Shown piece after piece: positions 17,413 through 54,469 of a DNA stretch of 64,000 bases. The number at the start of each line of letters is the position of its first letter. Positions within the stretch are counted from its first letter, which is position 1. This DNA is from Macrobrachium rosenbergii (lineage: Eukaryota; Arthropoda; Malacostraca; Decapoda; Palaemonidae), in the NCBI RefSeq assembly GCF_040412425.1, contig NC_089749.1, positions 31,709,313 through 31,773,312 on the forward strand. Direction: 5' to 3'. Below the pieces are notes generated by a model, which ran no database searches, had not been told where the DNA came from, and saw only the letters and a program-made list of their open reading frames with translations. The translations under genes and the position numbers were made by a program.

Positions 17413-17603
17413 ATGTGCGACGCCATCTTGAACTCCAACACCGAAACTCCTGAAGAAGGAAAAGACGGCTCATCCTCCAGCCCCAAGCAAGAGTTACCGC
17501 CTTCTCCGCCGGTCTTGATGCCCAAGATGGAACCTGTGGCATCGCTCCCTCAACCTGACCCCAGGTCGCTGGCTCGACTTTGCCTGCTGAATGCCGCTTA
17601 CAG
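17413..17603 (+). CDS. Candidate exon 1: Ser/Pro-rich N-terminus with start codon
   Basis: I take ATG 17413 ([17 protein letters not shown]...) as the start. The frame has a stop at 17347-17349 and no earlier ATG after it. The exon ends at a good donor, CAG|gtaggt, leaving two bases of a codon that the first base of exon 2 completes as Arg. The peptide is acidic and Ser/Pro-rich with no domain, including the short run [12 protein letters not shown]. Its GC-rich codons resemble the downstream exons and differ from the surrounding AT-rich DNA. Intron 1 would be 21.7 kb, so the linkage is inferred from phase and composition only. A 5' UTR exon may lie upstream. Confidence 0.5.

Positions 17604-54469: not shown

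Follow-up and report, generated by a model that had tools for sequence, protein, structure and literature searches.

A conserved malacostracan gene joining a BTB domain to an ETS domain in the prawn Macrobrachium rosenbergii

The window, by which we mean the whole stretch of 64,000 nucleotides that was analysed, holds a gene of ten exons on the + strand, which runs from an ATG at 17413 to a stop codon ending at 54469, with an AG acceptor and a GT donor wherever one is needed. When the exons are joined, the junction of exons 2 and 3 being bridged by hand, they give a product of 640 residues in which an N-terminal BTB domain (exons 2-4) is followed by a Ser/Pro/Thr-rich linker and, close to the C terminus, by an ETS domain (exons 7-9). 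The sequence-only reading had stated that the phases of exons 3 to 10 agree, and they do so at all seven junctions from 44954 to 54469; the junction of exons 2 and 3 lay outside that claim, and the phases of exons 1 and 2 also agree. The exons, and a stretch of extra bases in exon 3, are as follows.

17413..17603, + strand: exon 1, with the start codon (MCDAILN...NAAY(R)) and a proline-rich N terminus; donor GT, phase fitting exon 2
39343..39547, + strand: exon 2, carrying the first part of the BTB domain and, within it, the Tramtrack-like N-terminal strand (YRVCWEGH); Pfam BTB on exons 1-2, E 4.4e-5
44954..45099, + strand: exon 3, central part of the BTB domain (HPVIVVRD), which in the assembly does not begin in frame with exon 2; with exons 3-10 as query, Pfam gives BTB at E 2.8e-4
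44957..44970, + strand: 14 extra bases without counterpart in the proteins of relatives, the cause of the frame break under a CACAG/TGT acceptor
45736..45993, + strand: exon 4, in which the BTB domain ends and the linker begins; both boundaries in phase 0, conserved in the alignment of relatives
46358..46585, + strand: exon 5, linker, from the phase check and the alignment of relatives
48078..48315, + strand: exon 6, linker, from the phase check and the alignment of relatives
48495..48654, + strand: exon 7, first half of the ETS domain, from the phase check and Pfam
51235..51324, + strand: exon 8, the central segment of the ETS domain, which holds most of the recognition helix, from the phase check and Pfam
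52674..52836, + strand: exon 9, end of the ETS domain, from the phase check and Pfam
54224..54469, + strand: exon 10, C-terminal tail and stop codon, the end similar in the decapod rows of the alignment and not in the two amphipod rows

The initial description of this gene as one with a clear BTB and a clear ETS domain agrees with a Pfam scan, in which both domains exceed their curated cut-offs. The BTB domain of the hand-bridged product scores 55.1 bits (E 1e-14, residues 100-190, cut-off 20.5), and its pieces on either side of the exon 2/3 junction, scored apart, reach 24.1 and 21.5 bits, just above the cut-off; the ETS domain of the 640-residue product scores 93.1 bits (E 1.4e-26, residues 446-525, cut-off 26.9). 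Neither a SAM_PNT domain nor a C2H2 zinc finger is present in the product at E up to 1, BTB and Ets being the only Pfam domains found. These E-values, together with the existence of full-length relatives, exclude chance. In the predicted structure of the protein of Palaemon carinicauda (P0001; mean pLDDT 42.3), confidence is restricted to the BTB domain (residues 101-190, pLDDT 73-90 by block), and every block of 10 residues from 431 on falls below 50, so that the ETS domain is assigned from sequence. The same protein matched none of the families of NCBIfam, a library made for prokaryotes.

Elsewhere in the window, an open reading frame on the - strand (60169-60558) matches DUF7041 (Pfam 33.6 bits, cut-off 28) and overlaps another (59313-60191, -) that has no Pfam match; the pair looks like a retroelement fragment. 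A run of open reading frames at 1845-4551 on the + strand reads to the eye like a retroelement gag-pol, and the three tested (1845-2396, 2943-3407 and 3756-4205) have no Pfam match at E up to 0.01. Rfam gave no match at gathering score over the whole window.

A first protein search, in which 7,983 candidates were scored, returned at least 21 matches at E up to 0.001, and both Pfam domains are present in 17 of the 21 listed. These come from 13 decapod species (Palaemon carinicauda, Macrobrachium nipponense, Panulirus ornatus, Homarus americanus, Penaeus vannamei, P. japonicus, Procambarus clarkii, Cherax quadricarinatus, Scylla paramamosain, Portunus trituberculatus, Chionoecetes opilio, Eriocheir sinensis and Petrolisthes manimaculis), from two amphipods of different suborders (Trinorchestia longiramus and Hirondellea gigas) and from two further sources. 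The lineage of M. nipponense, a decapod and palaemonid-type prawn, was confirmed by look-up; the other named species of the first group are also decapods, and Palaemon is a palaemonid-type prawn. The best full-length relative among the matches listed is that of P. carinicauda, with 86% identity over 100% of the query, the same starting methionine as exon 1 and 67/77 identical residues in the N terminus; the model from M. nipponense is shorter but more similar (94% identity over 85% of the query). In the databases these relatives go under names that have nothing in common, among them bric-a-brac, tramtrack, pokkuri, ETV5 and Eip74EF. The remaining four of the 21 matches are two bee tramtrack proteins, a sequence marked partial that begins after the BTB domain and holds the ETS part only (P0012), and a model from Penaeus chinensis (P0016) in which the BTB domain is present and which breaks off within the ETS domain where exons 7 and 8 meet (GIFR followed by SARSQ), through an error of the model or else as an isoform that lacks DNA binding. 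In the Panulirus protein (P0003) part of the BTB domain is repeated, probably a model error.

Two further searches led to the same set. A search with the ETS region (40 candidates scored) gave 19 matches, all of them already in the first list, and a profile of six members (7,994 candidates scored) gave at least 41, among which the 15 with both domains had all been found before. The 24 new matches listed in the profile search include none with a BTB domain; 23 of them have ETS alone or PNT with ETS and include proteins of corals, an anemone, an octopus and tapeworms. No protein with both domains from outside Malacostraca appears among the 41 profile matches listed, nor any isopod, Daphnia, copepod or insect BTB-ETS protein among the matches listed in the protein searches. 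These searches depend on shared short words and have a length limit, so that the range is stated for the matches listed; as far as the three reach, the earlier suggestion of a lineage-specific gene is borne out, the BTB+ETS matches of named species being malacostracan. Two ETS-side fragments, one from Petrolisthes cinctipes (P0022) and P0023, were judged by eye to belong to the BTB-ETS family, and P0039, the last of the 24, which comes from a contig of 3,799 bases and has no Pfam label, holds the exon 9 piece of this family in a form close to that of the amphipods and may come from another peracarid.

Conservation is uneven along the protein. Identical residues number 83/88 in the ETS domain, 77/109 in the BTB domain and 93/252 in the linker in the comparison with Homarus; 84/88, 72/109 and 87/252 with Penaeus; and 72/88, 36/109 and 50/252 with the amphipod Trinorchestia. 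Towards the amphipods, therefore, the BTB domain is far less conserved than the ETS domain (36/109 and 72/88). The part before the ETS domain has between 13 and 35 Ser/Thr-Pro pairs per row, the highest value being that of the Panulirus protein with its repeat; such richness would lend itself to regulation by MAP kinases, which is known from other ETS proteins. A SUMO-like psi-K-x-E motif was also considered and was not used: it occurs in 14 of 17 rows, is missing in the two closest to the window and stands before the BTB domain in an amphipod protein (P0018).

The BTB domain is probably of the arthropod Tramtrack type. An N-terminal strand Y-x-[VL]-[RKC]-W-x-x-H is found in 16 of 17 rows, the model of the seventeenth beginning downstream of it, and aligns with RFCLRWNNH of bee tramtrack, although the N of FxLRWN is not kept, being E, G or S here. 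In this strand the domain resembles those of tramtrack, lola and bric-a-brac, and it has 29% and 32% identity to bee tramtrack over 111 and 116 columns. In the structure search, the hexameric Tramtrack-type BTB of the fly (8rc6) comes first (9.6e-8); in the sequence comparison it aligns over the whole query. Since KEAP1 (1.2e-7) and NAC1 (2.5e-7) follow closely and a MIZ1/NAC1 fusion chain ranks first by sequence, above 8rc6, the Tramtrack type is likely, not proven. The available part of a study of Tramtrack-type BTB domains reports that some form hexamers and that their main DNA-binding partners are C2H2, HTH (Psq) and FLYWCH domains (PMC11426971), whereas here it is an ETS domain that would bind DNA; its main text, as far as available, makes no mention of ETS as a partner, and its supplementary tables might list some.

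The ETS domain was compared with solved structures in the PDB, where 67 distinct sequences matched at E up to 0.001; the best are EHF (94.1 bits), ELF3 (91.9) and ELF2 (85.6), and ELF1 is also among the closest. Trees were built with 34 rows and, after two long rows had been omitted, with 32, the family being represented in them by 11 rows (the window and 10 of the 17 relatives). In both trees the BTB-ETS rows form a clade of their own (support 100/99), with a long stem (1.32 and 1.29 changes per column) and short inner branches, a pattern that we read as one burst of fast change followed by strong conservation. The deeper placement of the clade is weakly supported in both, and in neither does the domain fall inside ELF or with EHF/ELF3. 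The likeness to the ESE (ELF3, EHF) and ELF (ELF1, ELF2, Eip74EF) proteins consists in the winged-helix ETS domain, while those proteins have PNT or no second domain where the window protein has BTB. The window gene also has an extra intron inside the ETS domain (GIF-R-IME), which is not seen in the exons of two other ETS loci of the same genome, L007, which joins ELF1 and ELF2 in the trees, and L010, whose best reference is EHF and which is not firmly joined to EHF/ELF3.

The two arginines of helix 3, which in ETS domains contact GGA, are present as MSRGMR in 17 of 17 rows. All 17 aligned rows likewise read SRGMRTYYKR in the recognition helix, with Thr in place of the Tyr of EHF, ELF3, ELF1 and ELF2, at a position that matters for the base after GGA. 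Another ETS domain of the same genome (L004), which we take to be SPDEF-like, has Gln there. SPDEF and fly Ets98B recognise a GGAT core, according to the available part of PMC4362205. The replacement of Tyr by Thr probably alters which base follows GGA, a prediction made from the helix residues.

A six-frame search of the whole genome gave 42 ETS matches. As ELF-like and other ETS domains occur elsewhere in this genome, the BTB-ETS gene is an additional member of the family, and its identification as the ortholog of Eip74EF, yan or SPDEF is ruled out by separate domains of those kinds. With the exception of L007, which the trees group, we named the kinds of these domains by motif, on which assumption L005 is the yan-like one. 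As an observation of its own, 23 of the 42 matches lie on contig C45 (16.78-34.02 Mb, both strands), most densely at 25.8-30.3 Mb (L012-L016, L020, L022 and L024-L027); the 11 of these that were examined have a divergent helix with FAR (e.g., NFARGLR), and the three of them included in the tree group in one clade (support 100/100) with further copies, on C4, C10, C48 and C49. This cluster is a large local ETS expansion, and some of its matches hold stops (intron or pseudogene).

That the two domains belong to a single gene, as the sequence-only reading had it, agrees with their identical order in all 17 aligned rows, from 13 decapod and two amphipod species among others, and with linker and tail motifs common to the decapods. 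Moreover, the contigs that carry the relatives P0005 (595 aa) and P0010 (569 aa) measure at most 3,292 and 3,521 bases, which leaves no room for an intron-bearing gene of 37 kb, so that both relatives probably derive from spliced RNA; their source tag, lgn, we take to denote assembled sequencing runs. Two neighbouring genes, one with BTB and one with ETS, wrongly merged by the reader and by gene-prediction programs might account for the fact that most named entries look computer-predicted (titles with -like, uncharacterized or hypothetical), as well as for the one match that stops inside the ETS domain and the one that starts after the BTB domain. Such a merger is very improbable in view of the fused order in decapods and amphipods, the contigs that fit spliced RNA and the agreement of the seven junctions, and on the relatives we ruled it out. 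At the level of sequence, then, this is one gene encoding an N-terminal BTB domain, a linker and a strongly conserved ETS domain near the C terminus.

The junction of exons 2 and 3 raises a different alternative. As assembled, the two exons have no in-frame join, and a plain GT-AG mRNA stops after 145 residues. The relatives have a single variable residue between SSVLQ and VPSGQHP (or its equivalent), which is Cys in both Palaemon and M. nipponense; at this place the window has the acceptor CACAG, then TGT (Cys), the 14 bases without counterpart and then GTTCCG. When 13 GT donors for exon 2 (39481-39720) were combined with 6 AG acceptors for exon 3 (44908-44993), none of the 78 pairs was open in the frame of exon 3, and a different choice among these splice sites was rejected. 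A micro-exon between the two is held unlikely, the relatives having only one residue between the halves, and a non-AG acceptor (CAC before CTCGTTCCG) is possible but odd, as it would place Leu at the variable residue, where CACAG/TGT gives Cys as in Palaemon and M. nipponense. A minisatellite of about 65 copies of a 36-37-base unit occupies 42312-44643, with related units to 44879, about 75 bases upstream of exon 3. The absence of an open pair and the early stop would fit a genuine BTB-ETS gene in the course of loss from the species, or a null allele in the sequenced animal, the 14 bases cutting the protein short once the first part of the BTB domain is complete, and a repeat array so near to exon 3 is a place where replication, or equally assembly, may slip. 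A decaying gene, however, would be expected to carry further damage, whereas the other exons are open and conserved and the rest of the gene is without comparable damage: the BTB halves flanking the break equal M. nipponense at 91/91 aligned residues (the shorter model of that species does not reach the first 18), as does the ETS domain at 88/88. Loss of the gene or a null allele is thus quite unlikely in our estimate. The break may be an assembly error or a true allele; with the reading frame interrupted at this junction in the assembly, the window copy, as this allele, may not make the protein.

The reading that we prefer, and consider fairly probable, is that the window holds the local copy of an old, conserved malacostracan BTB-ETS factor, present at least in decapods and amphipods, whose BTB multimer would bind ETS-like sites and probably repress. 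The Tramtrack-like BTB domain would hold several chains together, as a dimer or a hexamer, and the ETS domains would then bind clustered or paired GGA-type sites. The sequence-only reading had proposed obligate dimerisation and the recruitment of corepressors through the BTB domain, which may be so; among domains of the Tramtrack type, some form hexamers. The multimer may repress its targets in the manner of Yan/TEL (aop, ETV6), ETS repressors that act as an oligomer held by a second domain; that domain is SAM (PNT) in Yan/TEL, and BTB here. The same gene could instead encode an activator or an architectural protein, in which the BTB domain clusters distant ETS-bound sites without direct repression. 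Tramtrack-type BTB proteins do include the insulator proteins GAF and Mod(mdg4), according to the available part of PMC11426971, and such a role by analogy with them seems to us rather unlikely. Within the reading that we prefer, we tentatively suggest an origin: an ETS subfamily may have arisen no later than the divergence of decapods and amphipods, when a Tramtrack-type BTB domain took over the oligomerising role of PNT/SAM and the change of Tyr to Thr in the helix gave a new DNA preference, and after a fast stretch it would have been frozen as an indispensable malacostracan regulator.

The BTB-ETS family is real and conserved, is undescribed as a family in the literature searched and is already in databases as predictions. 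The sequence-only reading knew of no such protein in the human or Drosophila sets. In the open-licence literature searched, from which subscription journals are largely absent, we likewise found no described BTB-ETS protein, but predicted ones exist in the public databases under unrelated names. In the available part of a survey of ETS proteins in ten animals, the only partners of ETS are PNT, PEA3-N, a second ETS or PEA3-N, AT-hook and DNA_pol_B, and BTB goes unmentioned (PMC2789578), as it does in the available part of a mollusc survey (PMC10664356). A study of L. vannamei counts 21 ETS genes and, in its available part, does not describe a BTB-ETS gene (PMC12111515).

With this gene, crustacean annotation gains a family whose members at present go by names that do not connect them. 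That the BTB partner is conserved in two large orders of crustaceans suggests that ETS proteins can exchange their oligomerising module. In a transcription factor family as much studied as ETS, the BTB-ETS proteins offer a direct test of the effect of BTB clustering on the choice of ETS sites.
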